Shown here: one piece after another, positions 8,787-51,156 of the stretch
How the letters are laid out: each line of letters starts with the position of its first letter
Position numbering within the stretch: the stretch's first letter is position 1
Assembly (NCBI GenBank): GCA_900317325.1
Contig: ONGE01000002.1
Coordinates: 62,001-126,000 of the forward strand
Length of the DNA: 64,000 nt
Source of the DNA: an uncultured Prevotellaceae bacterium
GTDB lineage: Bacteria; Bacteroidota; Bacteroidia; Bacteroidales; Muribaculaceae
Direction of reading: 5' to 3'
Program-made: the position numbers and the translations under genes
The notes under the pieces: model-generated
What the model was told of the DNA's origin: nothing
The model's database searches: none
What the model saw: only the letters and a program-made list of their open reading frames with translations

Positions 8787-9805
8787 TGTCAAGACAGATG
8801 AAGACTATCATGCAAGACAATCATCGGACTGCAGCAACGCTGCTCACGCTGCTGATGGCGCTGGTGCTCTCGTTCAGTGCCATGGCAAGCGGCAACATTC
8901 GCGGCGACGTGAACAACGACGGCAATGTGAACATCAGCGACGTGACTGCGTTGATCGACTATCTGATGAATGACACCGATTCCGGCCCCGCCCCGGCAGA
9001 AGCCGATTGCAACTACGATGGAAAAATCAACATCAGCGACGTGACTGCACTCATCGACTTTGTGATGAAAGATTTTTGGCCCGCCACATCCACGAGGACG
9101 TTTACAGTCAATGGCGTGAACTTTGTCATGGTGGCGGTCGAGGGCGGCACGTTCATGATGGGGGCCACTCCCGAGCAGGGAACCGATGCCAGCAGCAGGG
9201 AACGGCCTGTGCACCAGGTGACACTGTCTTCCTATTTCATCGGGCAGACCGAGGTCACCCAGGAACTGTGGATAGCGGTCATGGGCAACAACCCCAGCTA
9301 CTTCAGCGGGAGTCTGCTTCCCGTGGAAGGAGTCACTTGGGAGGACTGCCAGCAGTTTATCGCCTTGCTCAACGAGATGACAAACCAGGAGTTCCGGCTT
9401 CCCACCGAGGCCGAGTGGGAATTTGCCGCCCGAGGCGGGAACGCGAGCCAAGGCTATAAATACGCCGGCAGCAACGACATCTCATCGGTAGGCTGGTATT
9501 CCGGTAACGACTCATGGGAAACGCGCGGCACGGGTTACTACGGCACCCATCGCGTATCCACCCGTGAGCCCAACGAGTTGCAGATCCATGACATGAGTGG
9601 CAATGTGCACGAGTGGTGCCAGGACCGCTACGGGGACTATTCCAGCGGCGAGCAAGTGAATCCCGCTGGTCCCGCAACGGGTACGACACGCGTTTATCGT
9701 GGCGGCAACTGGTACTTTGACGACTGGTTCTGCCGTGTATCGTTCCGCAATGGCTTGTCGCCAACCAGCAGCAATTACGGTATCGGATTAAGATTGGCTC
9801 TATAA
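8786..9805 (+). CDS. Dockerin-FGE-like (sulfatase-modifying factor domain) secreted protein
   Basis: 339 residues, starting at the ATG that shares a base with the preceding TGA, so translation is probably coupled. After a signal peptide come two dockerin-type calcium loops (about residues 38-92), RGDVNNDGNVNISDVTALID and DCNYDGKINISDVTALID, then a formylglycine-generating-enzyme-like domain (about 105-339) with the hallmarks MVAVEGGTFMMGAT, PVHQVTLSSYFIGQTEVTQ, RLPTEAEWEFAARGG and MSGNVHEWCQD. Of the two catalytic cysteines of true FGE, one aligns with Phe (WYFDDWFC) and only the other is kept, so sulfatase activation is doubtful; many such domains act as binding or hypothetical redox modules. 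Confidence 0.85.
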   Translation: MSRQMKTIMQDNHRTAATLLTLLMALVLSFSAMASGNIRGDVNNDGNVNISDVTALIDYLMNDTDSGPAPAEADCNYDGKINISDVTALIDFVMKDFWPATSTRTFTVNGVNFVMVAVEGGTFMMGATPEQGTDASSRERPVHQVTLSSYFIGQTEVTQELWIAVMGNNPSYFSGSLLPVEGVTWEDCQQFIALLNEMTNQEFRLPTEAEWEFAARGGNASQGYKYAGSNDISSVGWYSGNDSWETRGTGYYGTHRVSTREPNELQIHDMSGNVHEWCQDRYGDYSSGEQVNPAGPATGTTRVYRGGNWYFDDWFCRVSFRNGLSPTSSNYGIGLRLAL

Positions 9806-35956: not shown

Positions 35957-37171
35957 ATGAAAAAATTAACGCTGTTTTTATCAATGATTATTGCCCTTAT
36001 TAGCTTCAATGCTAATGCAGGAATGTACATTGTGGGTAATGCCCCCTTTGGCGACTGGCAACCCGACGCTGGTGTGGAAATGACCTATGAGAATGGCCTT
36101 TACACCTACAAGGCCACCATTTCGGGCTCTGTTTGGTTTGTGTTTGCCAACCAACTGGAGGCTGATTGGGACATCTTCAACGACAATTACCGTATTGGCC
36201 CAACAAACGGTAACGAGACCGTTAAGCTTGGTGTCGATTACAGCACCCAAATTGCTCATACTAACGATGGCGCCTACCAATTCGTTGGTACTGGTCTTGA
36301 GTACACCTTCACCTTTGACGAGGCGAACATGACGTTCAGGATTGATTGCGATATAGAGCGTGGCGACGTGAACGCCGACGGCGCTGTCAATATTAGTGAC
36401 GTGACAATCCTGATTGGCCTGCTGATGAGCGGCAACACCGACGACCTCACCGCCGCTGCCGACTGCAACATGGACGGCAGCATCAACATCAGCGACGTGA
36501 CGTCCTTGATTAACTTCATGATGAGCGGCAGCTGGCCCGTGCCCGAGATGGTTTACACCGTAGCCGGTACCGAGAGCGTCTTTGGCAGCGACTGGGATCC
36601 CGCCGATGAAAACAACAACATGGTAAAGGGCGCCGATGGCGTTTACACCTTGACCAAGACGGGCGTCAACGTGACCGACAACTTCGAGTTCAAGATTGTG
36701 GGCAACCACGACTGGGGTGTGTATGAGTATCCCGTCGGCATGGGCAACAACCATGTTGTTGAAGTAGCCGAGGAAGGCGTTTATACCATCGTCATCACCT
36801 TCAAGCCCGAGGTTGAGGAAGGAGAAGACCACATCACCTGCACGCTGACCAAGACTGGTGAAATTGAGCACGTTTACACCGTTGTAGGTACCTACAACCT
36901 GTTTGGAGAAGACTGGGACCTCAACTGCGAGCAGAACAACATGGTCAAGGGTGATGACGGTATCTACCGTTTGAACAAGGCCGGTTGGTTCCAGGAGGGT
37001 GCCGACATCAGGTTCAAGGTCGTTCAAGATCACTCCTATACCCATTCATGGCCCGCTGAGGACTTCCAAATTGGCGTTTACAAGACTGGTGCCTTCAACT
37101 TTGAGATTGTCTTCAATCCCTACAATAACGACGAAGATAAGGTTCACGTCGTTATTACCGAGATTTTCTAA
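35957..37171 (+). CDS. Secreted SusE/F-like protein with an internal dockerin
   Basis: 404 residues from the ATG at 35957 (MKKLTLFLSM), which gives a clean signal peptide ending NANAG. Domains in order: an N-terminal SusF-like beta-sandwich (about 22-128, MYIVGNAPFGDW), a two-loop dockerin (about 135-192, GDVNADGAVNISDVTILIG and DCNMDGSINISDVTSLIN), then two SusE/F-type domains (about 199-295 and 303-404) beginning VYTVAGTESVFGSDWD and VYTVVGTYNLFGEDWD. Such sandwiches bind glycans in SusE/F. There is no lipobox. The last domain is almost identical in DNA to the end of the next gene. Confidence 0.8.
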   Translation: MKKLTLFLSMIIALISFNANAGMYIVGNAPFGDWQPDAGVEMTYENGLYTYKATISGSVWFVFANQLEADWDIFNDNYRIGPTNGNETVKLGVDYSTQIAHTNDGAYQFVGTGLEYTFTFDEANMTFRIDCDIERGDVNADGAVNISDVTILIGLLMSGNTDDLTAAADCNMDGSINISDVTSLINFMMSGSWPVPEMVYTVAGTESVFGSDWDPADENNNMVKGADGVYTLTKTGVNVTDNFEFKIVGNHDWGVYEYPVGMGNNHVVEVAEEGVYTIVITFKPEVEEGEDHITCTLTKTGEIEHVYTVVGTYNLFGEDWDLNCEQNNMVKGDDGIYRLNKAGWFQEGADIRFKVVQDHSYTHSWPAEDFQIGVYKTGAFNFEIVFNPYNNDEDKVHVVITEIF

Positions 37172-37444
37172 GAGAGTCATCTATTGAACTGATTCTTTAA
37201 TAGAGTTGTCCACCCTATTTTTGCGGCAATGAAATGACACATAAAATTCATTGCCGCAAAGAAAAGGGCGGACATCTCTGTTTTTTTAGTATTTTTGCAT
37301 ACAAAATAAGAATAACCATTATTCAATTCGCCTCGTTATATGTGTTAAGTACTCTGGTTTCTAACATTTAAAGCTTATTGATTGTTACTCATGTGATATC
37401 TCGTGTAAAGACAATATCTTATAACTACTTTAATTCTTACTTTT

Positions 37445-39427
37445 ATGAATAAACTATTGTTCTTGTTGTTGAGTGCCGCCGTTACAGTAGCTGTTACAGC
37501 AGGCATTACCCATACTGACATTCAGAAGAATAGCATCTCGCACAAGGCCACAGCGGCCAAGTTGACCAAGGCGACTCATGCTACTGGCGCTGCTACGCCC
37601 ACGGTTCCCGGACAATTCCATGGCTGGGACAGGCAGGCATCTCATGCCTTGAGGTCGGATCACGCAATCACGTGGGACTTTGAAGATGAAAATCAATTCG
37701 ATGAATTCAATTGCATCGATAATGATGGTGACGGCTTCAACTGGTACTATATCACCAACGCAGACCATGAGTGGGACTCCTGGATGAATTATGAAACTCA
37801 CAGTGGCGATGGAATCGTTTGCTCAAAGAGTTATTACCAAGAAGACCATCGTCCCCTCACGCCTGACAACTGGCTGATTTCTCCTAGGATGATTCTGGGC
37901 ACTACTTTGTCCTTCTTCGCCATGGGTCAGGATGATAATGATTGTTACGAGAAGTTTGGTGTATATGTATGCGTTGGCACCCCTACTGGAGTGGACGACT
38001 TCGTGCAGCTTGGTAATGATTTTACCACTACTGACGAGTATCAGGAGTTTGTAGTTGATCTGAGCGCGTATGAAGGCCAAGTTGGTCACTTTGCTATTGT
38101 TCACCACAATGTCAGTGGCCAGTTTATCCTGAACATCGATGACATCACCACCGATGGTAACATCTTGCCTCCCCCTGAAACTCCCGAAGTGAGAGTTACA
38201 CCTCGATCCACCACCGCCGTCGTGGAATGGGACGCCGGCGAAGGCGAATTGAATTGGAACCTGCGCTATCGTCTCTGGCGTGACATCTTAGGCAACCCCT
38301 TAGACTGCGACTTTAACGATGAGAACTATGACCTGAAAAAAGCCGGATGGACTCTCGATGATGCTGATGGTGATGGTAGAAATTGGCGCGTGGACAACGG
38401 TCATCTGTATTCAGAGTCTTATGATCCTACCGCTGACGTAGGATTATATCCCAATAACTACCTATACTCACCTGAGATCAAGTTGCAAGGCATTCTCAGG
38501 TTCACCTATTGGGAGATATCTGATTTGGGCCGACATTATTTTGATAGATTCATGGTCTATGCCCAGATCGGTGAAGAGATGCATCCCCTGGCTGACGAAG
38601 ACTATGTGGCAACAAGAGACCGTATGACTGAAACGATTGACTTGAACCAGTTTGGTGGCCAAGTGGGTCGCATTGTCTTCCGCCACTACAACTGCAAAAA
38701 TGAGTATGCCCTAGGTCTGGATGATATCTTCATTGGCAATCCTGATGCTGAGCTCATTGAACCTGCCGAGTGGACCGAGGTCAAAGCGTTAACCACGCCT
38801 AACTACACCATCAAGGGCCTGACACTCCAGACCAAGTATGAGGTTCAGGTTATGGCCTACAACGTGGTTAAACCGTCTGACTGGAGCAAGATTGTTGATT
38901 TCACGACTCTTGAAGAGGGTGCTGATGTTTTTGAACTTGGTGATGTCAACCATGATTTCGAGGTGAACATCACTGATGTTACCAATTTTATCGCCTACCT
39001 GCTCGACAATAGCAACATCATCTATAAGGAACAAGCCGACACCTATGGCGACGAAGCTATCAACATCACCGATGTGACGTCCTTGATTACCTATCTGATG
39101 AGCGGCAGCTGGCCCGTTGTGGAGCACGTTTACACCGTTGTCGGTACCTACAACCTGTTTGGAGAAGACTGGGACCTCAACTGCGAGCAGAACAACATGG
39201 TTAAGGGTGATGACGGTATCTACCGTTTGACCAAGGCCGGTTGGTTCCAGGAGGGTACCGAAATCTATTTCAAGGTCGTTCAAGACCACTCTTATACCCA
39301 TTCATGGCCCGCCGAAAACTTCCAGATTGGCGTCTACAAGACTGGTGCCTTCAATTATGAGATCGTCTTCAATCCCTATAATAACGACGAAGATAAGGTT
39401 CACGTCATTATTACCGAGATTTTCTAA
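37445..39427 (+). CDS. Multidomain adhesin: two cleaved-adhesin domains, Fn3-like, dockerin, SusE-like
   Basis: 660 residues with a signal peptide (about 1-22). Two choice-of-anchor J / cleaved-adhesin jelly rolls (about 70-240 and 290-440) show TWDFEDENQFDEFNCIDNDG, NWLISPRMIL and the DCDFNDENYDLKKAGWTLDD start of the second. A fibronectin-like segment (ETPEVRVTPRSTTAVVEWD, split around the second jelly roll) and TKYEVQVMAYN follow, then a dockerin (about 497-555) whose second loop has lost several calcium ligands (YGDEAINITD), and a C-terminal SusE-like domain. It looks like a surface binding protein. A -7 box, TATTTTTG, is at 37290-37297. Confidence 0.8.
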   Translation: MNKLLFLLLSAAVTVAVTAGITHTDIQKNSISHKATAAKLTKATHATGAATPTVPGQFHGWDRQASHALRSDHAITWDFEDENQFDEFNCIDNDGDGFNWYYITNADHEWDSWMNYETHSGDGIVCSKSYYQEDHRPLTPDNWLISPRMILGTTLSFFAMGQDDNDCYEKFGVYVCVGTPTGVDDFVQLGNDFTTTDEYQEFVVDLSAYEGQVGHFAIVHHNVSGQFILNIDDITTDGNILPPPETPEVRVTPRSTTAVVEWDAGEGELNWNLRYRLWRDILGNPLDCDFNDENYDLKKAGWTLDDADGDGRNWRVDNGHLYSESYDPTADVGLYPNNYLYSPEIKLQGILRFTYWEISDLGRHYFDRFMVYAQIGEEMHPLADEDYVATRDRMTETIDLNQFGGQVGRIVFRHYNCKNEYALGLDDIFIGNPDAELIEPAEWTEVKALTTPNYTIKGLTLQTKYEVQVMAYNVVKPSDWSKIVDFTTLEEGADVFELGDVNHDFEVNITDVTNFIAYLLDNSNIIYKEQADTYGDEAINITDVTSLITYLMSGSWPVVEHVYTVVGTYNLFGEDWDLNCEQNNMVKGDDGIYRLTKAGWFQEGTEIYFKVVQDHSYTHSWPAENFQIGVYKTGAFNYEIVFNPYNNDEDKVHVIITEIF

Positions 39428-39470
39428 GTGAACAACCTGTTGAGCTGATTCTTTTATAGAGTCCTTATAA

Positions 39471-39508
39471 GAAGAGGATGTGCCATCAAAATGTGGCACA
39501 TCCTCTTC
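39471..39508. terminator. Long hairpin between convergent genes
   Basis: A perfect 15-bp stem (39471-39485 / 39494-39508) with an eight-base loop. No long T run on either side, but the position between convergent genes at 39427 and 39536 suggests a bidirectional terminator. Confidence 0.6.
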
Positions 39509-39535
39509 GCATATCCTAGCTGGCTGATAGCAGTG

Positions 39536-41710
39536 CTATATTAATAAAGGAATTAGAGGGCAAGGCGCAGCCCCAGACGATTCACCGCCCATCAGATAGG
39601 TAATCAAGGATGTCACGTCGCTGATGTTTGTTACGCCATCAGCGTTGAAATCGGCGGCAGCGGGCATCTCGCCATCGGCCATCAACAGGTTGATCAGCGC
39701 GGTCACGTCGCTGATGTTGACGATGCCGTCGCCATTCACGTCGCCGCGAATGAAGGCAGACTTCTCGGAGAAGTAGCCCGGATTGTCGGGGCCGCCGTCG
39801 AGGTGGGCGTATTCCTCCTCGGTGTGGTTGGGATCGTAGGTCGTGCCCTGGCCGCCGACGAGGTTGTTGCAGTCCTGGAACATCTCAAAGCCGCTTCCTA
39901 TAGCTGAAGCGGTGCTCCAACCATCGCCCACATAGATGGTCTGCAGTTCCTGACAATATGCGAACATAGATCTCATGGTGGCCACATTAGCCGTGTTGAA
40001 ACTGCTTAAGTCAAGAATCTTTAGTTTGTTGCATTGAGCGAACAAGCCTGCCATAAAGGTCACCTTTTCGGTGTTGAAGTGACTCACGTCGATGCTTGAC
40101 AATGAGCTGCAATTAAGGAACATATCACCCATATCGGTCACCTCGCTGGTATTCAGATACTCCATGCCTGCGATAGACTTAAGAAACTGCATACCCATGA
40201 ACCAACTGTTGGTGGACGTCGGACGCGCATCGGCAAACGAGGGGTCAAAGACTGCATATTGCACAATGCCAGTGATTCCGTCATAAATCCAGGCGGGAAA
40301 GTTGTCTCCCGTGTTCAGTTCATAGATCTTGCCCGTGCGGCTATTGCGCTCGAAGTCGTAGTAGAACGTCAGGATATTGTTATCAAACACGGCATAGGCC
40401 ACAGGGTTGAACTTATCGGTCAAGTAGCCCGGGTTGCCCGTGCCGCCATCGATGTGGGCATAAGTCTTGTCCCTCGGGTTGGAGGCGTCCCAGGCTGTGC
40501 CCTGGCCGCCCACTAGGAGAAAGTTGTTTGCGAACATATGCTCTGATTGAGTGACGCAATCGGTGTTCCAGCCACTGCCCACATAGATGGTTTGCAGTTC
40601 GAGACAGAATGAGAACATCATGTCCATGTCGGTCACATTGGCCGTGTTCCAGTTGGACAGGTCAAGGGTCTTTAGTTTTTCGCAGTCCCCGAACATTGCG
40701 TACATCGAGGTCACCTTATCGGTGTTAAAGTGACTCACGTCGATGTGCTTCAAATTATTGCTGTGCCCGAACATCCAGTTCATAATGGTCACCTCGCTGG
40801 TGTTCAAGTACTCCAGGCCGATGATGGTGTCAATTTTATTCATCCCATAAAACCAAGCATAGGTTGTCGTTGGGCGGGCATCGGCGAACGAGGGGTCAAT
40901 GACCGCATTGGTCACCTCGCTACAGGTATGGTCCAGTTCCCAACCGACTCTGTTGAGTCCCACGTTCAGGTCATAGATCCTGCCCGGGCGGGAATCGCGC
41001 TGGTTGTCGTAGTAGAACGTCAGCGTCGTATTCTCGGGCGTGTAGCAGACATAGGACATGGTGCCTGCACTCAGGTAGCCCGGGTTGCCCGTGCCGCCGT
41101 CGATGTGGGCATAGTCGGCATCCACATGCGTGGCGTCATAGGCCGTGCCCCTGCCTCCCACGAGGCTTGTGCAGTCCTTGAACACATTATGAGAACTGGC
41201 AAGAGCCATCTCGCTCAGTCTCCAGCCGTCGCCCACGTAGATGGTCTGCAGAGCGCTGCAGTTCCTGAACATCTCACTCAAGTCGGTCACCTTCGCGAGG
41301 TTGAATTTTTCCAGGTTCAGGGTCGTCAACTTATAGCAGCGGTTGAACATGTCATCCATACGAATCACCTCGCTGGTGTTCAGGTACTCCAGACCTGTGA
41401 GGGCTTCAAGGTTCCTCATTCCGGAGAACCAGTAGAAAGTGCTCGTCGGGCGAGCACCGGCAAACGACGGATCAAAGACCACCTGCTTCACACTGAGATT
41501 GGTGAAATCGGTCACCCAACCAGGATCGGCGGGGCCTACGTTCAGGTCATAGGTTGTGCCCGTGCGGGTGCTGCGGTCGTTGTCGTAGTAGAACGACAGC
41601 GCCGCGTTGTCCGACGTGTACACAGCATAGGCCTCTTGGGCACTGACGCCCAGGGCGCACATCATGGCCGCCACAAGGACAACCATCCGAAAGAGTAATG
41701 AATTCTTCAT
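39536..41710 (-). CDS. BspA-type (DUF285) surface protein with C-terminal dockerin, three modules
   Basis: 724 residues from the ATG at 41710 (MKNSLLFRMVV). Signal peptide ends GVSAQ. Three consecutive modules of about 210 residues each start with AYAVYTSDNAALSFYYD-like text, continue through PSFADARPTTT and WFYGM, then DUF285 leucine-rich repeats (LEYLNTSEV, LDLSNWNTANVTDMDMMF) and end with AHIDGGTGNPGYL. A dockerin (about 655-710: RGDVNGDGIVNISDVTALIN, DFNADGVTNISDVTSLIT) is followed by a short hydrophobic tail. Such repeats mediate surface binding in BspA proteins; the ligand is unknown. Confidence 0.85.
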   Translation of the reverse strand: MKNSLLFRMVVLVAAMMCALGVSAQEAYAVYTSDNAALSFYYDNDRSTRTGTTYDLNVGPADPGWVTDFTNLSVKQVVFDPSFAGARPTSTFYWFSGMRNLEALTGLEYLNTSEVIRMDDMFNRCYKLTTLNLEKFNLAKVTDLSEMFRNCSALQTIYVGDGWRLSEMALASSHNVFKDCTSLVGGRGTAYDATHVDADYAHIDGGTGNPGYLSAGTMSYVCYTPENTTLTFYYDNQRDSRPGRIYDLNVGLNRVGWELDHTCSEVTNAVIDPSFADARPTTTYAWFYGMNKIDTIIGLEYLNTSEVTIMNWMFGHSNNLKHIDVSHFNTDKVTSMYAMFGDCEKLKTLDLSNWNTANVTDMDMMFSFCLELQTIYVGSGWNTDCVTQSEHMFANNFLLVGGQGTAWDASNPRDKTYAHIDGGTGNPGYLTDKFNPVAYAVFDNNILTFYYDFERNSRTGKIYELNTGDNFPAWIYDGITGIVQYAVFDPSFADARPTSTNSWFMGMQFLKSIAGMEYLNTSEVTDMGDMFLNCSSLSSIDVSHFNTEKVTFMAGLFAQCNKLKILDLSSFNTANVATMRSMFAYCQELQTIYVGDGWSTASAIGSGFEMFQDCNNLVGGQGTTYDPNHTEEEYAHLDGGPDNPGYFSEKSAFIRGDVNGDGIVNISDVTALINLLMADGEMPAAADFNADGVTNISDVTSLITYLMGGESSGAAPCPLIPLLI

Positions 41711-41742
41711 AACACAAACCATTTAAAATGAGATTCTTGTAA

Positions 41743-41757
41743 TTTGCTGCAAATTTA
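41743..41757 (-). promoter_or_regulatory. Shared BspA promoter element, copy 1
   Basis: TTTGCTGCAAATTTA on the plus strand; on the minus strand its TAAATTTG is a -7 box. The same element stands before the genes at 42193-43677 (43710-43724) and 49297-51156 (51189-51203). Confidence 0.55.
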
Positions 41758-41918
41758 CTAAAAAATATCGTTTTTAGACTCATAAAGTGCCTGAATTCAT
41801 GGCCTGTGACACCAGCAGATGGCAACACGCTCGCGATGGGAATGATACAGCAGTTGGCCCATCGATTTTTTCAATATTAATTTGGCGAATGTGGCGAATT
41901 ACACGAAAGAATGCTGAA

Positions 41919-42252
41919 TAACGTGAGTTTGACGGAATTCTGTTAGAAACCTCCGTGAGTAGAGACGCAAAATTTTGCGTCTCAGGGTCAGCCTTTAGTC
42001 ATGTTTGACGATTGGAGACGCAAAATTTTGCGTCTCTACATAGCGAATAAATTAAGAATCAACGATTTATCTTCGTCAAATTCGTGCAATTGGCAACGCT
42101 AAAGGTTGGGCAAGTACCTGTATCACAACCTTAAAATCCCTCATACCCACGAGAAGGGCATGAGGGATTCCTTATTGACTTTATTGAAGATTTCAATTCT
42201 GGGGAATACTCATCACGTAGTTGATGAGGGTGGTCACGTCGGTGATGTTCAA
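41919..42252. repeat. Direct-repeat copy 2 of the 340-bp intergenic block
   Basis: Nearly identical to 35315-35652. It includes palindromes at 41962-41983 and 42015-42036, the terminator at 42133-42169 and the intact 3' end of the gene at 42193. The gap 41711-42192 holds only this block plus an upstream region that is also shared with 43725-43830. Confidence 0.88.
42133..42169 (-). terminator. Terminator of the 42193-43677 gene
   Basis: Stem arms 42135-42148 and 42156-42169 (one mismatch) with a seven-base loop and a T run on the minus side, 24 bases past the stop codon. Confidence 0.75.
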
Positions 42253-43677
42253 CTGGCCGTCGCTGTTCATGTCGGCTGCAGGATTATCAGCAACGTTATC
42301 ACTCATGATCATGCTGATGAGCGTAGTCACGTCGGTGATGTTCACCTGGCCGTCGCCGTTCACGTCGCCACGGATAAAGTCGGGCTTCTCACTGAAGTAT
42401 CCCGGGTTGCTGGGGCCGCCGTCGAGGTGGGCATAGTCCACATCCACATGGTTGACATCGTAGGTCGTGCCCTTACCGCCCACCAGGCTGGTGCAATCCT
42501 TGAACATGTCCCAAGTGTAGCGCATGGAAGCCGTCGTCCAGCCATCGCCCACATAGATGGTGCGCAGATTATTGCAGTGGATGAACATATGTCGTATCTC
42601 GTAGACCTGAGACGTGTTGAAACTGCTCAAGTCAAGACTCGTCAATTTATAACAGCTATCGAACATGAAAGCCATAATCTCCACCTCACTGGTGTTCAGA
42701 TAAGTCAAGCCCTGGATGGATTCAAGATTCCACATTCTGTAAAACCAACCCCAGGTGGTGGTCGGGCGGGCATCAGCAAACGAGGGGTCAAAGACCACCT
42801 TGGTCACCTCGTGGTTGGTTTCATCAATGTCCCAACCGGTATCGTATTCTCCCTCGTTCATGTCGTAGGTCCTGCCTGGGCGGCCAATGCGCAGGCCGTC
42901 GTAGTAGAACGTCAACGTCGTGTTTTCAGGTGTGTAGCAGGCATAGGCCTCTTTCAGTTCGGTGAAGTAGCCCGGATTGCTCGTGCCACCATCGAAGTGG
43001 GCATAGCCGGCATCCACATGGCCCGAGTCGAAGGTCGTGCCTTGTCCTCCCACCAGGCTGGTACAGTTATAGAACATATTTAATGACCCGGTCACTGCCG
43101 CTGTGCTCCATCCGATGCTGACATAGATGGTTCTCAGACTGGTGCAGGCATTGAACATATACTCCATGTTGTCTACCGTGGCCGTGTTGAAATGCCTCAA
43201 GTCAAGCATCGTCAAACCAGAGCAGCGAGAAAACATGGCAGACATACGTTCCACCTTGGCGGTGTTGAAATGACTCAAGTCGAGGTTTGTCAATCTGTAG
43301 CAGTCATAGAACATATAATCCATACGGGTCACCTTACTGGTGTTCAGATGCTCCAAGCCCTCGACGGATTGAAGATTCGTCATGCCATAAAACCAGCCGT
43401 AGGTGGTCGTCGGGCGGGCATCAGCGAACGACGGGTCAAACACCACCCGAGTCACATTGGCTTTGGTGCCATCGGTGTCCCAGCCGGCATCGTTGTTATC
43501 GGTATTCAGAAAGTAGGTTGTGCCCGTGCGGATATTGCGATCGTCGTCGTAGTAGAACGACAGCGTCATGTTATCCGGCGTGTAGCAAGCGTAGGCCTCT
43601 TGAGCCCTGGCTCCAAGGGCGCACATCATGGCCGTCACCAAGACGACCATCCGAAAGAGTAATGATTCTTTTTTCAT
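42193..43677 (-). CDS. BspA-type (DUF285) surface protein with C-terminal dockerin, two modules
   Basis: 494 residues: signal peptide ending GARAQ, two DUF285 modules (about 26-225 and 230-430) with YACYTPENTTLTFYYDG, VVFDPSFADARPTTT and repeats such as LDLSHFNTAKVERMSAMF, then a dockerin (about 437-490) with loops GDVNGDGQVNITDVTTLIS and DMNSDGQLNITDVTTLIN. It differs from its neighbour at 39536 mainly by having one module fewer. Its upstream region (about 110 bp) is homologous to that of the 39536 gene, so whole gene units were duplicated. Confidence 0.85.
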   Translation of the reverse strand: MKKESLLFRMVVLVTAMMCALGARAQEAYACYTPDNMTLSFYYDDDRNIRTGTTYFLNTDNNDAGWDTDGTKANVTRVVFDPSFADARPTTTYGWFYGMTNLQSVEGLEHLNTSKVTRMDYMFYDCYRLTNLDLSHFNTAKVERMSAMFSRCSGLTMLDLRHFNTATVDNMEYMFNACTSLRTIYVSIGWSTAAVTGSLNMFYNCTSLVGGQGTTFDSGHVDAGYAHFDGGTSNPGYFTELKEAYACYTPENTTLTFYYDGLRIGRPGRTYDMNEGEYDTGWDIDETNHEVTKVVFDPSFADARPTTTWGWFYRMWNLESIQGLTYLNTSEVEIMAFMFDSCYKLTSLDLSSFNTSQVYEIRHMFIHCNNLRTIYVGDGWTTASMRYTWDMFKDCTSLVGGKGTTYDVNHVDVDYAHLDGGPSNPGYFSEKPDFIRGDVNGDGQVNITDVTTLISMIMSDNVADNPAADMNSDGQLNITDVTTLINYVMSIPQN

Positions 43678-43709
43678 ATTACAAGCAATTTATCACGTGT
43701 ATAATGTAA

Positions 43710-43724
43710 TTTGCTGCAAATTTA
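43710..43724 (-). promoter_or_regulatory. Shared BspA promoter element, copy 2
   Basis: Same 15-base element as at 41743-41757, with the minus-strand -7 box TAAATTTG, 33 bases before the ATG. Confidence 0.55.
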
Positions 43725-43833
43725 GTAAAAAAAAACGTTTTTATACTCATGAAGCGCCAGAATTCATAGCCTGTGACACCGGCAGATGGTAACACGCTCG
43801 CAATGGAAATGATTGTTGAAAGTCACAACCTTA

Positions 43834-43866
43834 AAAATCCCTCACGCCCGCTTGAGGGCATGAGGG
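43834..43866 (-). terminator. Terminator of the 43893-46256 gene
   Basis: ATCCCTCACGCCC pairs with GGGCATGAGGGAT (one mismatch) with a minus-side T run. It belongs to the same hairpin family as 42133-42169 and 35533-35569. Confidence 0.75.
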
Positions 43867-43892
43867 ATATCATCATCGACCTTGTTGAAGGA

Positions 43893-46256
43893 TTAACTCT
43901 TGGAGCTGCTCATCAGATAGGTGATCATGGACGTCACGTCGCTGATGTTCGTTACACCATCGCTGTTGAAATCGGCGGCTGCAGGCACCTCGCCATCAAT
44001 CATCAACAGGTTGAGCAGCGTGGTCACGTCGCTGATGTTGACGATGCCGTCGCCGTTCACGTCGCCACGGACAAAGCTGGACTTGATCTCCACGTTGTCA
44101 ATCGCGAAGTAGTCGCCCTCGGGATGCACGCTGCTGTCCTTGCTGTATCTCCATTCCAGGGTGCATTCCCCGGCGGGCAAGCTCACCGAATAGGTTTCCC
44201 AATCGGCGTTCTTGTAGGCACCATAAGCGACTTGCTCCACGCCGTTGATGTAGAACGAGCATCTATCCCAGAAGGTTGATGCACCTTCGCCCCATGCCTT
44301 GAAGTCGAACTTCAGGATATCGCCATCGGCTGCGGTTACAGTGGCCGTCAGCACCGATGTGCTGCTTGACACCCCCGCGTTGCCCGACTGGGCATACATG
44401 CCGTCACCCTCCTGCATCACGATCCAGGGATAATCGCCTGTGGACTCGAAGTGAATATTGCCGCCGGGAACATTCAGCGCGTCGTCAAGGGTGGCGAATG
44501 TCTCGATTTGATAGAAATTCTCCCATGCTCGGGCGGTCTGATAGGCCTCAAGGGATGACTGGGGAACGTGCAATGTTGCATTACCGAAAACCGTCCAACT
44601 AAAAAGTACTTGATAATTGCCTGGTGGTACGGTAACTGCCGGTGGAACAAGCGCATGGCAAGTGACCGAAGTGATCTTATCACATGAATTGAACGCATTA
44701 TAGCCAATCAGTTCCACACCGCTGCCTAATGTCAAGGTCTTGATACCAAAGCAACGCCAATATGCATACTCATCAATGGTCTTTACGCTATTGGGAATCT
44801 TTACCGTCTCCATTTTCATGCAATCATAAAACGCAAGAAGACCAATGCTTGTCAATCCTTCAGACAAATTGATGTTCTTCAGACTATCACAACCATAGAA
44901 GGCGTACGGTTCTAAGGTCTTAATGCTGTTAGGTAACGTGATGCTCTTCTTTTTATTCCAGAAAGCACAACCCTTATATCCAATCGAGGTCACGTCATAG
45001 GTTGTACCATCCACATTGATTGTCGCAGGGATGGCAACGCTCTCGTATGCCAGAGTGTAGCCTGCTTTTGCAGTAAAACTGTACAAGGAATCACATCTGG
45101 TGTATTGGGGACTCACCTCCACAGTTGTGGGACCGGTCTTCTGATAACAGATGTCGTTCACTTCAAAGTCTGATTTGTACCAAACATTCTCGACGATAAA
45201 GTTGTTCCAATTATTGGCTGAGCGGTACGCTGCAAGAGATTCTCGTGGCACAACAAGCATAAAATCCTCATTCTGACAGATATCACTGGGGAACGTGTTG
45301 CTCGCAATTACGGGAGGGGTTTCGGCCAAAATAGAGAAATAAGAGAATTTGTCACATCCTTCAAATGCATGAGCCCCTATGGAAGTGACTCCCTTATCCA
45401 AATCGATAGAGCTGATATAAGAATCAGAAAAAGCATAGGTTCCAATGATGGTAACTGTATTGGGAAGAGTGACGTAAAAATTTCCCCGTTGGGGCTTACT
45501 GCCACTGAATGCGTATGAGTCAATCTGTGTCACGGTGTAGGTCACACCATTATAGATTACTTGTGAAGGGATTATATACCATTTACAATGATAACTATAG
45601 AGGTCTAAGTCCCTATAGGTCACGGCCACTGTGTTGCTGCTGATTCTCTTGTAATAGATGCCGTCAACAACAAATAAGTTGTCTTCTACAATGTTAGCGA
45701 ACTGCGACCAGCCCGAAGTGCTCTGGTAACTGCTTAATGAACCTTGCGGAACATACAGTCGGGTGTTGGCATAGGTGGCCGCATCAAAGTTGTTGGCATC
45801 GCACGACACTGCAGCCTCGCTCAAGCAAGTGATCCAATCCAGATTAGTACAGCCGATAAACGCATTGTTATAAATGGAGTAGATGGTGCTGGGCAGAGTG
45901 ATGTGGCGCAGCGAGGTGCAACCGGCAAAGCATTCGTTCATCAGCATTATAACACCTTCGGGAAGCGTGACAACATTCAGATTGGTGCAGCCCTTGAAAG
46001 CTTGGTAGCCAATGCCTGTCACTGGATAGTACTTGCCATTGTAGGGCACGCTGTCAGGGATGTTCACAGTCCCGGAATAGGTGTTGAATGAACCATTGTT
46101 CTGGACACTGACTACACCGCGACCATCGGAATAGGTGGTCAAGCGATAGTAGATGCCGTTGGTCGAGAAATATACTTCATCGGCAGTGGCGCTCACGGCA
46201 CACGTGAAGAATGTCATCAGCACGACCAATCGAAAGAATAAACTTTTCTTTTCCAT
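43893..46256 (-). CDS. BspA-type LRR_5 surface protein with C-terminal dockerin
   Basis: 787 residues from the ATG at 46256 (MEKKSLFFRLVV), where the signal peptide begins. Leucine-rich repeats of the LRR_5 type fill about residues 40-580: VTGIGYQAFKGCTNLNVVTL, VTSIGAHAFEGCDKFSYF and relatives, with inserts of the form VPRESLAAYRSANNWNNF. A jelly-roll segment (about 600-720, FKAWGEGASTFWDRCSFYIN and GEYFAIDNV-like end) may bind carbohydrate. A dockerin closes the protein (RGDVNGDGIVNISDVTTLLN, DFNSDGVTNISDVTSMIT). Base composition is visibly more A/T-rich than the flanking core genes. Confidence 0.83.
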   Translation of the reverse strand: MEKKSLFFRLVVLMTFFTCAVSATADEVYFSTNGIYYRLTTYSDGRGVVSVQNNGSFNTYSGTVNIPDSVPYNGKYYPVTGIGYQAFKGCTNLNVVTLPEGVIMLMNECFAGCTSLRHITLPSTIYSIYNNAFIGCTNLDWITCLSEAAVSCDANNFDAATYANTRLYVPQGSLSSYQSTSGWSQFANIVEDNLFVVDGIYYKRISSNTVAVTYRDLDLYSYHCKWYIIPSQVIYNGVTYTVTQIDSYAFSGSKPQRGNFYVTLPNTVTIIGTYAFSDSYISSIDLDKGVTSIGAHAFEGCDKFSYFSILAETPPVIASNTFPSDICQNEDFMLVVPRESLAAYRSANNWNNFIVENVWYKSDFEVNDICYQKTGPTTVEVSPQYTRCDSLYSFTAKAGYTLAYESVAIPATINVDGTTYDVTSIGYKGCAFWNKKKSITLPNSIKTLEPYAFYGCDSLKNINLSEGLTSIGLLAFYDCMKMETVKIPNSVKTIDEYAYWRCFGIKTLTLGSGVELIGYNAFNSCDKITSVTCHALVPPAVTVPPGNYQVLFSWTVFGNATLHVPQSSLEAYQTARAWENFYQIETFATLDDALNVPGGNIHFESTGDYPWIVMQEGDGMYAQSGNAGVSSSTSVLTATVTAADGDILKFDFKAWGEGASTFWDRCSFYINGVEQVAYGAYKNADWETYSVSLPAGECTLEWRYSKDSSVHPEGDYFAIDNVEIKSSFVRGDVNGDGIVNISDVTTLLNLLMIDGEVPAAADFNSDGVTNISDVTSMITYLMSSSKS

Positions 46257-46560
46257 AAGCCTATAGTTTTTAATGGTTAGTAATTGCCACAAATATAGCA
46301 ATAATAATTAAATTGTGACACATAAAGCGTTAAAAAAATGTCAATAACACAGATATTGACCCAGCCTTTAACCTCGGTGAAGCCAATTTCACAAACTCAC
46401 GTTAAATAACGTGATTTAGATGAAAATAAGTTGCTGTTACTTAACTCCTCCCCCGCCCGGGGGGAGGTGCCCGTCAGGGCGGAGGAGGGGGAGTGCCTGG
46501 GGAGAGTATGACTTACCCTCAAAGCTCTTCCCCTGGGGATGTCAACGCCCCCTGAGAGGG

Positions 46561-46729
46561 TGTGTCATAATTCAACTGCTAGAACTATAACCGCCCTGCG
46601 GGCGGGAAATTAATCAAATTAATTATAAAATATTTATTAATATGATAATAGTATCAATTTTAATTTAATAATTTGTTTAATTTCCCGTGCGATAGCACGG
46701 TTATATTACCGAGTCGCAATTATGACACA
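46561..46729. mobile_element. MITE-like nested palindromic element, 169 bp
   Basis: Outer arms TGTGTCATAATT (46561-46572) and its complement (46718-46729) are perfect. Inside them TATAACCG (46586-46593) pairs with 46698-46705 and GGGAAATTAA (46604-46613) with 46677-46686. Each side carries a small GC-rich hairpin (46591-46607 and 46685-46700), and the centre is an A/T-rich spacer. There is no coding frame. The form fits a non-autonomous mobile element or a long structured RNA. Confidence 0.6.
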
Positions 46730-46798
46730 TCCTCAATTGCTAACGCACTGATTGACAATCTATAATTTTCGTCGAATTCACGTTTTTCACTGCTTTGC

Positions 46799-47020
46799 GT
46801 CCGTTCGTCCGTTCATTCATGCATGCGTGAGGAGGCAAGAACAAGTCAGGTTTCAATCACCGTCACATACACATTTCTGTACGAACGGATGAACGAATGA
46901 AAAGGTAGGTATTGTATAGTTTTATGACAGAATTGAAATTGTTGTGTCAAAACTTGCGATGACACAATTTCATTCGTTCATCCGTTCGTTCATTTTATAT
47001 ATAATAGCGGACGAACGGAC
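46799..47020. repeat. Inverted-repeat unit of 222 bp, copy 1
   Basis: Bounded by GTCCGTTCGTCCG (46799-46811) and its perfect complement (47008-47020). Inside, perfect 21-base arms at 46881-46901 and 46969-46989 enclose a smaller hairpin in which TTGTGTC pairs with GACACAA. The region 46257-47330 holds no gene; it also contains a GC-rich imperfect palindrome at 46444-46494. Confidence 0.7.
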
Positions 47021-47082
47021 AAAAAACCAGCACTTGAGACGAGAGGACAGACATGAGCAAAACCTAACTTTTCTCCTCACGC

Positions 47083-47235
47083 ACACATACATTTGTACGA
47101 ACGGATGAACGGATGAAAAGGTAGGTATAATAATTTTATGATAGAATTGAAATTGTTGTGTCAAAACTTGCGATGACACAATTTCATTCGTTCATCCGTT
47201 CGTTCATTTATATATATAATAGCGGACGAACGGAC
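47083..47235. repeat. Inverted-repeat unit, copy 2 (tandem, offset 216 bp)
   Basis: Repeats 46867-47020 almost exactly: 21-base arms at 47097-47117 and 47183-47203 (one mismatch) and the end element at 47223-47235. The left end element of copy 1 is not repeated. Confidence 0.7.
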
Positions 47236-47257
47236 GAAAAACGATCACTCCACACGA

Positions 47258-47325
47258 TAAAAAGCGGCCGGCTGCTCGGGCAGTCGGTCGCTTCATGTTA
47301 TTGATGTGATACCTCAGGTCTCGTT
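47258..47325 (-). repeat. Terminator plus tRNA-Phe-3'-end-like scar, copy C
   Basis: GC-rich hairpin (47264-47291) with a minus-side T run (47259-47263), preceded on the minus strand by a stretch that matches the end of tRNA-Phe (GATGTGATACCT here, GATGTGGTACCT at the tRNA). It sits directly after the stop codon of the 47331-49070 gene and serves as its terminator. Confidence 0.65.
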
Positions 47326-47330
47326 GCGGA

Positions 47331-49070
47331 TCAGTGCAGGATAATGTCGATTAGGGCGTTGATGTCGGAGATATTGACTTCGCCATCACCGTTCACGTCG
47401 GCAGCAGAGGTGTTATCATTTCCGCTCAGAATCATGTTGATGACGGCGTTCACATCAGATATATTGACCTCAAGGTCATGGTTCACGTCGCCAATGAATA
47501 TATCTTCCACAATCTGTCCGAAATAGGGATACCAGTTCTCGTCAGCCCGATAGGCATCGGCCGTTCCCTGCAGCACATGCAGCGTGCGGCCAGAGTAATC
47601 ATAACCGTCCAAACAGAATGGTTCATACCCGGTCGATACTCTCGAGAGGTCAGCAATGTAGCAATACACATCCGTCAGCCCAAAGCACTGATAGAACGCA
47701 AAGTAATTGATCTCAGTTACCGAGTTGGGGATGTCGATGCTGGTCAGGCCATCGCAGCCCGCGAACGCCAAGTCACCGATTGCTGTTACCGAGTTGGGGA
47801 TAGTCGTGTTCTTGCAGCCAGCAATCAATGTATTAGAGGCGGTCTCGATAATTGCATTGCAGTTGTTGTGCGAATCATATCTTGGATTGCCACTTTCTAC
47901 CACGATGCTGGTCAGACCTGAGCAACTCTCGAACACCCCGTCACCGATAGATGTTACCGAGTTGGGGATGACGATGCTGGTCAAGCCATCGCAGTCCTCG
48001 AACGCAGAGCCAGCAATGCCTAATGTTCCTTCTCTGAAAGTCATATTCGTTCCGCTTGGCATACTGCCTTTATACTTATAAGCGACCTTGCCGGCATAGA
48101 CCATTCCGAATGGCTGGTTTTTATACCATGCTGTATTATTGAACGCATTGCCACCGATTGCTGTTACCGAGTTGGGGATGTTGATGCCAGTCAGCCCAGT
48201 GCAACCAGAGAACGCAGACGAACCGATCTCAGTTACCGAGTCGGGGATGTCGATGCTGGTCAGACCATCGCAGTTGTAGAACGCATAGTCATCGATAGTA
48301 GTTACTGAGTTGGGGATAGTCGTGTTCTTGCAGCCATAAATTAACGTGTTATCGGCGGTCTCGATAATTGCATTGCAGTTGTTGCGCGAATCATATGTTG
48401 GATTGCCACTTTCTACCACGATGCTGGTAAGACCTGAGCAACTCTCGAACACCCCGTAACCAATCTCAATTACTGAGTTGGGGATGTCGATGCTGGTCAG
48501 ACTGTCGCAACTATAGAACGCATAGTGACCAATCTCAGTTACCGAGTTGGGGATGACGATACTGGTCAGACTGTCGCAGCAATCGAACGCAAAGTTACCG
48601 ATCTTAGTTACCGAGTTGGGGATAATCGTGTTCTTGCAGCCAGCAATCAACACATTATCGGCGGTCTCGATAATTGCATTGCAGTTGTTGCGCGAATCAA
48701 ACCTGGGATTGCCACTGTCTACCACGATGCTGGTCAGCCCAGGGCAGTTCCCGAATGCCTCTTGACCGATCTCAGTTACCGAGTTGGGGACGACGATGCT
48801 GGTCAGTTCAGTACTGCCATATAACGCAATGGCTTCGATAGAAGTTACCGGGTAGGTGGTTCCATCATAGGTAACGGTGGCTGGGATAACGACATCGCCT
48901 GAATACCCGATAAATAAAAAACCAGGAACACGTCGGGAAGCCACGGCGGCCTCGTTGCCGTGGATGTTGTAACAGATGCCATCGACCACGAAGTCGGCGG
49001 CCGTAGCCGTTAAAGGCAACAGGAGTGCCAGCAACAGGATGGCGGTTTTGATAAATTGTTTCATAATCAT
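47331..49070 (-). CDS. BspA-type LRR_5 surface protein with C-terminal dockerin
   Basis: 579 residues, signal peptide ending ATAAD (a start two codons later is also possible). About 15 LRR_5 repeats of the form IPNSVTEIGxxAFxxCDGLTS run from about residue 55 to 480, interrupted three times by a longer unit containing VVESGNPTYDSRNNCNAIIE. These longer units are almost identical in DNA (near 47.84, 48.36 and 48.66 kb), a sign of recent internal duplication. A short capping segment (about 485-520) and a dockerin (GDVNHDLEVNISDVNAVIN, DVNGDGEVNISDINALID) complete it. Probably surface exposed and ligand binding; unlike its neighbours the dockerin ends the protein exactly. Confidence 0.85.
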   Translation of the reverse strand: MIMKQFIKTAILLLALLLPLTATAADFVVDGICYNIHGNEAAVASRRVPGFLFIGYSGDVVIPATVTYDGTTYPVTSIEAIALYGSTELTSIVVPNSVTEIGQEAFGNCPGLTSIVVDSGNPRFDSRNNCNAIIETADNVLIAGCKNTIIPNSVTKIGNFAFDCCDSLTSIVIPNSVTEIGHYAFYSCDSLTSIDIPNSVIEIGYGVFESCSGLTSIVVESGNPTYDSRNNCNAIIETADNTLIYGCKNTTIPNSVTTIDDYAFYNCDGLTSIDIPDSVTEIGSSAFSGCTGLTGINIPNSVTAIGGNAFNNTAWYKNQPFGMVYAGKVAYKYKGSMPSGTNMTFREGTLGIAGSAFEDCDGLTSIVIPNSVTSIGDGVFESCSGLTSIVVESGNPRYDSHNNCNAIIETASNTLIAGCKNTTIPNSVTAIGDLAFAGCDGLTSIDIPNSVTEINYFAFYQCFGLTDVYCYIADLSRVSTGYEPFCLDGYDYSGRTLHVLQGTADAYRADENWYPYFGQIVEDIFIGDVNHDLEVNISDVNAVINMILSGNDNTSAADVNGDGEVNISDINALIDIILH

Positions 49071-49188
49071 AATGTTTAGAAATTAATAATTAGTTAATGA
49101 AATCATTGATTAAAGGTATCGCCCACAAAGGTATAAAAGATTTTTCAATATTCATCACAGTCATGCATATTTTTTCATACATCCACAC

Positions 49189-49250
49189 AAAAAAGCGGCC
49201 GGCTGCGCGGGCAGTCGGCCATTTCATGTTTTTGATGTAGTACATCCGGT
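49189..49250 (-). repeat. Terminator plus tRNA-Phe-3'-end-like scar, copy B
   Basis: Hairpin 49195-49220 with six minus-side T residues (49189-49194), then GATGTAGTACATCCGG, close to the GATGTGGTACCTCCGG at the tRNA-Phe 3' end. It follows the 49297-51156 gene and probably terminates it. Confidence 0.65.
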
Positions 49251-49296
49251 CTCGGATGGGGCAGCACATGCCGCCCTTTTTATACATTTCTCTCGC

Positions 49297-51156
49297 TTAG
49301 AAAATCTTGTTCATATCAATGTTAATCATCTGATTGTCGGGAGCATTGGGATCGAAAATGATGTCAATGCTGAAGGCACCAGTCTCGTAAATGTAAATGA
49401 GCCTATTTTCGGCGGGCCATGAGTAGGCATAAGAGTGATTAGTAACAATCTTGAAATAGATTTCGGTACCTTCCGGGAACCAACCGGCCTTGTTTAAACG
49501 GTAGATGCCGTCAGCGCCCTTAGTCATGTTGTTGCGCTCGTCGTTGAGATCCCACTCGCTTTCAAACAGGTTGGCGGTACCGACAACGGTGTAAACCGGT
49601 TCGGGCCAGGTGCCACTCAGCAGGAAGTTGATGAGGCAGGTCACATCCGAAATGTTAACATTGCCATCCAAGTCACAGTCGGCAGCGGCAGGAGCAGCCT
49701 GGTTGCTCATCAGAATGTTGAGCAGGGCGGTTGCGTCGCTAATGTTGATGTCGAGGTCATCATTCACGTCACCGCGGGTGTAGGCAGGCCTCCTGGTGAG
49801 GTAGCCGGGGTTGCTCGGGCCTCCGTCGATGTGGGCGTAGACGCCATCAATATGAACGCCATCGTAGGTCGTGCCCTGGCCACCAACCAGGCTGTTACAG
49901 CCAGCGAACATGCGACCTGAATATAACAACGAAGCATTGCTCCATTCATCACCCACATAGATGGTCTGCAAATGTTCACAGTCTGCAAACATGCGTGTCA
50001 TGGTATTCACATTGGCCGTGTTGAAAGTGCCCAAGTCAAGGCGTGTCAGGCTATGACAACTTTCGAACATACCGAACATCATAGCCACTTTGGCGGTGTT
50101 GAAACCGCTCAAGTCAATGCTTGGCAATGAACTGCAGCCAGCGAACATATCACTCATATCGGTAACCTCAATCGTGTTCAGGTATTGTATGCCCATGATA
50201 GACTTAAGATATGGCATATCATAAAACCATCCATTGGTGCTCGTCGGGCGGTAATTAGCAAACGAGGGGTCAATGACTGCCTTGGTCACATAAGGATAAT
50301 CCCAATGCCACATGGGTATACCTGGCTCGTGCCCCTCGATGGTGTAGATACCGCCCGGGCGACTGCCAATCTTGTTGTCGTAGTAGAAAGATAATGTCGT
50401 GTTCTCCGGCGTGTAGCAGACATAGGCCACGGTACCCGAAGCAGTGAAATAGCCCGGGTTGCTGGAGCCGCCGTCGGCGTGCGCATAGGTCTTGTCCGTC
50501 GGATTGGATTCGTTATATACCGTGCCCATGCCGCCCACCAGGCTGGTGGTGTTATGGAACATATCTTTGGAATAAGTCACTGCGGCTGTGTTCCAGCGCT
50601 CACCCACAATGATGGTTTGCAGACTGGTGCAGCCATCGAACATGTTACCCATATCGGTTACCTTGGACGTGTTAAGACCGTTCAGGTTAAGACTTGTCAA
50701 GCCAGTGCAGCCTTCGAACATGCGACTCATATTGGTTACGTTGGACGTGTTGAGACCGTTCAGGTCAAGACTTGTCAATTCTGTACAATTAGAAAACATC
50801 CAAGCCATATCGGTCACATCGCTGGTGTTCAGGTATCTTATGCCCGTGATAGACTGAAGATTCTGCAAATAGTAAAACCATCCATGGGTGGTCGTCGGGC
50901 GGTAATTAGCGAACGAGCGGTCAAATTCTGCCTTGGTCGCACCAAGAAGCAACAAACTCCACTGGGGTAAATGGCCTGGCTCATCTTGCAGTAACCAGGT
51001 GTAGTCCGGGCGGGTGCTGCGCTCGTTGTCATAGTAAAAAGTGAGCGTCTTGTTCTCAGACGTGTAGCAAGCATAGGCCTCTTTGGCACTGGCGCCAAGG
51101 GCGCACATCATGGCCGCCATCAGGACAGCCAGACGAAAAAGTAACGAATTCTTCAT
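49297..51156 (-). CDS. BspA-type (DUF285) protein with internal dockerin and SusE-like C-terminal domain
   Basis: 619 residues. Signal peptide ends GASAK. Two DUF285 modules (about 25-235 and 240-450), with LDLNGLNTSNVTNMSRMFEG and AHIDGGPSNPGYL, are followed by a dockerin (about 455-512: RGDVNDDLDINISDATALLN, DCDLDGNVNISDVTCLIN) and a SusE-like domain (about 518-619, VYTVVGTANLFESEWD). The last domain is a diverged relative of those ending the genes at 35957 and 37445, so this protein joins the two architectures in the cluster. It is the gene closest to tRNA-Phe. Confidence 0.85.
   Translation of the reverse strand: MKNSLLFRLAVLMAAMMCALGASAKEAYACYTSENKTLTFYYDNERSTRPDYTWLLQDEPGHLPQWSLLLLGATKAEFDRSFANYRPTTTHGWFYYLQNLQSITGIRYLNTSDVTDMAWMFSNCTELTSLDLNGLNTSNVTNMSRMFEGCTGLTSLNLNGLNTSKVTDMGNMFDGCTSLQTIIVGERWNTAAVTYSKDMFHNTTSLVGGMGTVYNESNPTDKTYAHADGGSSNPGYFTASGTVAYVCYTPENTTLSFYYDNKIGSRPGGIYTIEGHEPGIPMWHWDYPYVTKAVIDPSFANYRPTSTNGWFYDMPYLKSIMGIQYLNTIEVTDMSDMFAGCSSLPSIDLSGFNTAKVAMMFGMFESCHSLTRLDLGTFNTANVNTMTRMFADCEHLQTIYVGDEWSNASLLYSGRMFAGCNSLVGGQGTTYDGVHIDGVYAHIDGGPSNPGYLTRRPAYTRGDVNDDLDINISDATALLNILMSNQAAPAAADCDLDGNVNISDVTCLINFLLSGTWPEPVYTVVGTANLFESEWDLNDERNNMTKGADGIYRLNKAGWFPEGTEIYFKIVTNHSYAYSWPAENRLIYIYETGAFSIDIIFDPNAPDNQMINIDMNKIF

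Follow-up and report, generated by a model that had tools for sequence, protein, structure and literature searches.

Divergent cohesin-like domains as probable partners of an abundant dockerin set in a Muribaculaceae genome

Dockerin proteins

We analyzed a 64,000-nucleotide stretch of DNA (hereafter the window) from an uncultured ruminant-gut bacterium of the family Muribaculaceae, order Bacteroidales (GenBank assembly GCA_900317325.1, contig ONGE01000002.1, positions 62,001 to 126,000). The assembly is 3.47 Mb long in 44 contigs and is 94% complete. Eight proteins encoded in the window carry dockerins, and elsewhere the genome encodes a divergent family of cohesin-like domains that, judging from sequence, is probably the partner of these orphan modules.

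Three of the eight genes lie on the plus strand. They encode an FGE-sulfatase-like protein (8786..9805) with an N-terminal dockerin at 8903-9061; a protein that consists mainly of X25/SusE-F-like modules (35957..37171), placed after an internal dockerin at 36362-36520 and with an X25-like match over the Pfam cut-off; and a cleaved-adhesin (choice-of-anchor J) protein (37445..39427) with an internal dockerin at 38936-39097 and a C-terminal X25-like module below that cut-off. The five genes on the minus strand encode BspA-type leucine-rich repeat (LRR) proteins. Three match DUF285: 39536..41722 (C-terminal dockerin, 39593-39745), 42193..43677 (C-terminal dockerin, 42214-42369) and 49297..51156 (internal dockerin, 49618-49773, with a C-terminal X25-like module below the Pfam cut-off). 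Two are LRR_5 proteins with C-terminal dockerins: 43893..46301 (dockerin 43914-44066), whose true start is probably downstream of the listed TTG, and 47331..49070 (dockerin 47340-47492), which has the only window dockerin with Asn at position 14. The original prediction, made from the letters of the window, had placed the module at the N-terminus of the FGE-like protein, internally in three proteins and C-terminally in the LRR proteins. Domain positions bear out the first two statements, and the third holds for four of the five LRR proteins, the dockerin of the fifth (49297-51156) being internal. The label ‘secreted’ given to the window proteins reflects N-termini judged by eye.

The modules are two-loop type I dockerins, as had been proposed. 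The Pfam Dockerin_1 model (PF00404) scores 32.7 to 45.4 bits in all eight proteins, against a curated cut-off of 22.9 bits, and its hallmark, two F-hand calcium loop-helix repeats of about 22 residues each, is present. Alignments with solved C. thermocellum dockerins run end to end across both repeats (E down to 1e-12). A dockerin profile trained on the genome’s own set, which includes these eight, scores them at 63.6 to 77.2 bits and the next window frame at 5.2 bits.

The C-terminal X25-like modules of the proteins at 35957-37171, 37445-39427 and 49297-51156 are closely alike by eye. This likeness, between three proteins encoded on opposite strands, suggests that modules have been shuffled between neighbors.

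The window’s eight are a small share of the at least 155 dockerin matches in the genome (E<=0.01), a lower bound for which the best 150 of 288 candidates were scored. We compiled 130 dockerins in 129 frames, some of them end-clipped, taken from 45 stretches together with 30 search loci and the window itself. Pfam Dockerin_1 was recognized in 121 of the 129 frames at E<=1e-5, and with one exception each cargo protein has a single two-loop dockerin. By simple distance rules, 104 of the 130 are C-terminal (within 25 residues of the frame end), 16 internal and 10 N-terminal.

The largest Pfam cargo groups are LRR_5 (31 of the 129 frames), Peptidase_C10 (15) and CotH (11), followed by DUF285 (7), M6 peptidases (6), FGE (6), S8/subtilase (5) and endonuclease I (4); these counts cover 129 of the at least 155 dockerin proteins and the best 25 of 35 families in each of two listings. 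Glycosidase-type domains are few: GHL10 in three frames, alpha-amylase in at least three and GH53 in two. Plant-cell-wall glycosidases, the main dockerin cargo of a cellulosome, are thus not the main cargo here. Pfam finds no glycosidase domain in the eight window proteins, in agreement with the original prediction that none carries a cellulosomal glycosidase; genome-wide, that statement has to be relaxed for the few amylase, GH53 and GHL10 domains.

At one locus (L047, C29:98500-105500), neighboring frames share repeats and very similar C-terminal dockerins. One is C10-type protease-like by eye, and the other is clipped by the end of the stretch.

Cohesin-like domains

The window itself has no cohesin, in line with the original prediction: its best frame reaches 8.0 bits with our cohesin profiles, and a whole-genome search places none there. 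That search, which the original prediction had called for, found eight divergent cohesin-like domains in six proteins, all outside the window. A candidate partner is missing from the window only, since the same genome encodes this family. On its own, the Pfam cohesin model (PF00963) gives three matches in the genome, all below its cut-off. Two of these proteins (C8 and C25) seeded our cohesin profile; the third (C37, L033), whose match spans 47 of the 139 model positions, was left out of the seed. PF00963 matches four of the eight domains at E<=1, the best at 22.2 bits against a curated cut-off of 24.1 bits.

One of the domains is predicted by AlphaFold2 to have the jelly-roll beta-sandwich fold of cohesins. 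The model holds a dockerin and the cohesin-like domain in one chain, and we left their relative placement uninterpreted. Most of the genome’s cohesin-like proteins carry dockerins too, and part of them have tails like those of the type IX secretion system (T9SS). Each has at most two clear cohesins, where a scaffoldin would have several.

Scaffoldin-like proteins occur in relatives. Two genomes of the window’s genus (G060 and G126) have a 919-residue frame in which six tandem cohesins are followed by a C-terminal dockerin, adjoining a dockerin-cohesin frame with a tail. Elsewhere in the Bacteroidales, ten cohesins are present in a frame that reaches the end of its contig (G191), and other frames contain eight and five (G150), five (G395 and G217), four (G371) and three (G348); the stretch fetched for each of these six genomes also contains a dockerin gene.

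We scanned named genomes with a set of three closely related domains, after an alignment of all eight had proved too variable for this use. The scan, which is biased to near relatives, yielded 12 loci from 220 stretches. The named relatives of the cohesin proteins are metagenome-assembled genomes (MAGs) labeled Muribaculaceae or Bacteroidales, several of them from ruminants; the closest is RGIG2290 from goat duodenum (91% identity in the matched domain). Five loci in the nearest MAGs (L059-L063) encode a protein with a cohesin, a dockerin and a cohesin, then a small cohesin-dockerin protein. At a further locus (L064) the contig end truncates the first protein of this pair, and the second has an FGE-like domain fused to it. 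In the Bacteroidaceae MAG RGIG351 (L067), a single protein carries four cohesins, and a dockerin gene adjoins it.

Contact positions

Both modules show signs of a binding face. Positions 10, 11, 14, 17 and 18 of each dockerin repeat, which we take to be the cohesin contacts in clostridial dockerins, have a mean entropy of 1.5 bits against 3.0 bits for nine other positions in an alignment of 127 dockerins (three of the 130 were dropped for gaps); these means were taken by hand, the nine ‘free’ columns (4, 7, 15 and 19 in each repeat, plus 22 in the first) were picked after viewing the table, and a partial core role is possible for positions 10 and 17. Of 126 first repeats, 125 have Ile or Val at position 10. 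Position 14 divides the 127 sequences into 63 with Thr in both repeats, 36 with Asn in both and 28 others, with no Thr/Asn mixtures, and Ala at position 11 accompanies Asn at position 14 in 61 of 65 repeats. Common descent accounts for part of this constraint.

Among the cohesin proteins themselves, those of 695 and 674 residues carry Thr- and Asn-class dockerins, and those of 856 and 739 residues carry dockerins whose contact residues are unlike the two main classes. Across the cohesin family, Gln33 never varies and Asp35 hardly does. Both are placed by the structural model on strand 29-37, whose counterpart in type I cohesins presumably provides key contacts. NagJ and the C. acetobutylicum cohesin 6kgc also have an Asp where Asp35 aligns. 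The structures 3kcp, 4fl4 and 2o4e we likewise take to contain cohesins.

Secretion tails

SprA, a core T9SS protein, is present in the genome. Besides its full-length gene there is another SprA-like stretch (C18:29711-31042), which is partial and contains two TGA codons in frame. Across the genome, the T9SS model PF18962 has 11 matches at E<=1, three of them over the cut-off. The T9SS tail model TIGR04183 matches two of six cohesin tails from this genome and its genus, below its cut-off as detailed later, and the genome’s own 739- and 214-residue cohesin frames are not among its matches listed at E<=1. T9SS anchoring of the genome’s own cohesin proteins is only suggested by such tails. For distant scaffoldins it is likely: in eight genomes of other families, a T9SS type A tail is over the cut-off in 4 of 5 multi-cohesin proteins, and also in 7 of 10 dockerin proteins.

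In the window’s own genome, TIGR04183 is found at E<=0.01 in no more than 1 of 76 dockerin proteins in one set and no more than 3 of 53 in the other, counts read from listings of the best 25 families. Since nearly all cargo examined is without a recognized T9SS tail, its surface-retention tag may be the dockerin.

A tail profile (A6) was built exclusively from the tails of cohesin proteins, three of them own and six from elsewhere; its matches are partly circular, and nothing here rests on it. A UGSC-family protein (PF24696) of the window (6675-8786, plus strand) has a C-terminal tail that by eye resembles that of the 695-residue cohesin protein (L044), and its frame has one base in common with the start of the dockerin-FGE gene.

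Co-occurrence

Dockerins and cohesin-like domains tend to be found in the same genomes. We searched 148 genomes of the window’s family with a cohesin-only profile, which is free of the possible dockerin bias seen with the order-level profile (A7, below): 55 have a dockerin, 41 a cohesin-like domain and 33 both. All 11 genomes of the window’s genus have both modules, with at least 40 dockerins and 2 to 16 cohesin-like domains each. Outside the genus, dockerins occur in 22 of the 30 cohesin genomes in this sample versus 22 of the 107 others. Among 294 Bacteroidales genomes, 81 have a dockerin and 23 a cohesin-like domain; all 23 of the latter have a dockerin, versus 58 of the 271 others. For this order-level search, 13 of the 26 rows of profile A7 include a dockerin, and the scored model of 136 positions covers the cohesin. 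In the window’s own genome A7 recovered five of the eight known domains, with the best 11 of 205 candidates scored.

Sixteen of the 23 order-sample cohesin genomes, those with few dockerins, were re-searched for dockerins. In 14 of them (not in G378 or G417), a cohesin-like domain has a dockerin no more than 1 kb away on the same contig. The nearest dockerin is in the cohesin’s own frame in seven (G007, G219, G250, G273, G279, G365 and G415) and in a separate frame in seven (G165, G201, G260, G276, G283, G319 and G371). Seven of the 16 genomes have a single dockerin, which is in a separate frame in four, in the same frame in two and on another contig in one. In G165, G276, G319 and G371 the lone dockerin has a frame to itself and is 0.7 to 1.0 kb away from the cohesin.

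Five dockerin-rich Bacteroidales genomes have no cohesin-like match (G234, G329, G255, G258 and G422). Among the rows listed, their dockerins match mostly from profile position 8-11 only, and they are possibly a different module type. The dockerins of G348 are also matched only from about position 8, yet this genome has cohesins.

Interpretation

The explanation we favor, with a probability of roughly 0.7, is that dockerin cargo is held by divergent cohesins on surface proteins in a plug-and-socket assembly system. The plug would be the single dockerin on cargo such as LRR proteins, C10, S8 and M6 peptidases, CotH, endonuclease I and FGE-like proteins. The sockets would be the divergent cohesins, mostly on dockerin-bearing proteins and in part accompanied by T9SS-like sorting tails, which would hold the cohesin proteins on the cell surface; in relatives, the sockets would be arrayed in tandem as scaffoldin-like proteins. 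Binding would probably depend on calcium. Read from sequence, the system looks cellulosome- or amylosome-like in architecture, not in cargo. The evidence is indirect, and it supports the original proposal of a portable tag that serves surface assembly or anchoring.

Several observations weigh against this explanation. Of the 81 dockerin-bearing Bacteroidales genomes, 58 have no match to the cohesin profile; the same is true of 14 of the 25 genomes in that sample with three or more dockerins, and of G001, which has 31 dockerins (85% complete). Conversely, 8 of the 41 cohesin genomes in the family sample have no dockerin at E<=1e-3. The loose first look of A7 listed many candidates in dockerin-rich genomes; it may favor cohesins near dockerins and miss others, and the limit of 11 scored candidates may have concealed cohesins in such genomes. 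Fisher tests of the co-occurrence ignore shared ancestry. Part of the co-occurrence is due to fusion, since many cohesins are in one chain with a dockerin. The genome has eight cohesin-like domains for at least 155 dockerins. The two TIGR04183 matches among the six own and same-genus cohesin tails score 17.6 and 20.4 bits against a cut-off of 23 bits. The analysis establishes the presence and numbers of both modules, a predicted cohesin fold for one domain, their architectures, co-occurrence and gene adjacency; as to binding itself, it offers a shared fold.

The dockerins could instead be calcium-stabilized spacers or end-caps with no specific partner, and the cohesin-like domains generic beta-sandwich modules. 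Cohesin-less dockerin genomes are common enough in the order to fit this idea, and in some proteins the two modules alternate within one chain. Sequence drift would be expected of a mere spacer, so the constrained contact positions count against it, and we consider this alternative unlikely.

Somewhat more doubtful still is that the dockerins bind a cohesin of another rumen species, a host or mucus ligand or an unseen protein, with the cohesin-like family serving its own few dockerins. The lopsided numbers of the two modules point this way, as do the atypical contact residues in the dockerins of the 856- and 739-residue cohesin proteins. However, dockerins of the Thr and Asn classes sit on the 695- and 674-residue cohesin proteins, and the co-occurrence persists outside the genus. 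Species that combine many dockerins with few cohesins are also known, R. albus and R. bromii being examples in the part of the report available to us (PMC6118326).

Highly improbable is an outer-membrane export signal that replaces the T9SS tail and is read by the secretion machinery with no cohesin: such a signal would suit the 104 of 130 dockerins near the frame end and the scarcity of TIGR04183 matches among own dockerin proteins, but not the 16 internal and 10 N-terminal dockerins, nor the joint presence of dockerin and T9SS tail in the 7 of 10 proteins from other families.

Within the plug-and-socket explanation we offer a bolder proposal, tentatively. The dockerin may have replaced the T9SS tail as the surface tag in this Muribaculaceae genus, so that a few cohesin carriers with T9SS-type tails would display more than 100 non-covalently held proteins (peptidases, nucleases and LRR proteins). 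This would be an analogue of the cellulosome that scavenges proteins and nucleic acids; different cohesins might read the two dockerin classes, and cargo perhaps crosses the outer membrane bound to its carrier.

Comparison with known systems

A bovine rumen catalogue contains more than 12,000 dockerins, with a carbohydrate-active enzyme (CAZyme) domain in about 24% of dockerin proteins (PMC7260996). In the portion of that report available, Bacteroidetes MAGs have a few dockerins and no recognizable cohesin, the explanations offered being that cohesins are not needed for a true cellulosome or are too distant to be recognized. Other excerpts describe cohesins in certain Bacteroidetes, with the dockerin-rich bin #136 among bins that have two to four tandem cohesins (PMC6071333), and a two-cohesin protein in the Prevotellaceae bin RUG606 (PMC5830445). 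Both bins are partial precedents for Bacteroidetes multi-cohesin proteins. A contrary report, again as excerpted, has cohesins in Firmicutes_A bins only (PMC9177762). The available passages of PMC7260996, PMC6071333 and PMC5830445 give standard-model counts, without the divergent family, its dockerin pairing or its tails, and in the openly licensed literature we found no description of this family or its pairing with dockerins in Bacteroidota.

The divergent family offers a testable answer to the question of unrecognizable Bacteroidetes cohesins, as posed in the accessible part of PMC7260996. Given one predicted structure and adjacent cohesin and dockerin genes, a small number of recombinant proteins would be enough to answer the question. 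Should binding be confirmed, cellulosome-like assembly would reach a major gut phylum and a Gram-negative surface, where the cargo would be peptidases and LRR proteins, and new cohesin-dockerin pairs would become available for protein engineering.

The cellulosome of Ruminococcus flavefaciens FD-1, as described in the accessible text (PMC2930009), resembles this system in having more than 100 dockerin proteins (222 in FD-1), many of them LRR proteins (28) and peptidases (16), dockerin groups with conserved patterns, and dockerins on some cohesin proteins. FD-1 is a clostridium with numerous plant-cell-wall glycosidases as cargo, whereas here the host is a member of the Bacteroidales, glycosidases are few and some cohesin tails are T9SS-like. 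Clostridium perfringens NagJ (GH84C; 2jh2, 2ozn) has its cohesin on a secreted glycosidase, and here cohesins are found on adaptor, LRR or scaffoldin-like proteins. Candidatus Stygibacter (Cloacimonadota) has a tandem-cohesin, scaffoldin-like protein with a C-terminal surface-attachment domain and dockerin cargo that includes S8 and gingipain-like C25 peptidases, a system that was also proposed from sequence (PMC8542988, in the sections available). It differs from ours in its phylum, in cohesins detected by InterProScan, in a scaffoldin with CBM2/CBM3 and in the mere handful of dockerin proteins described in those sections.

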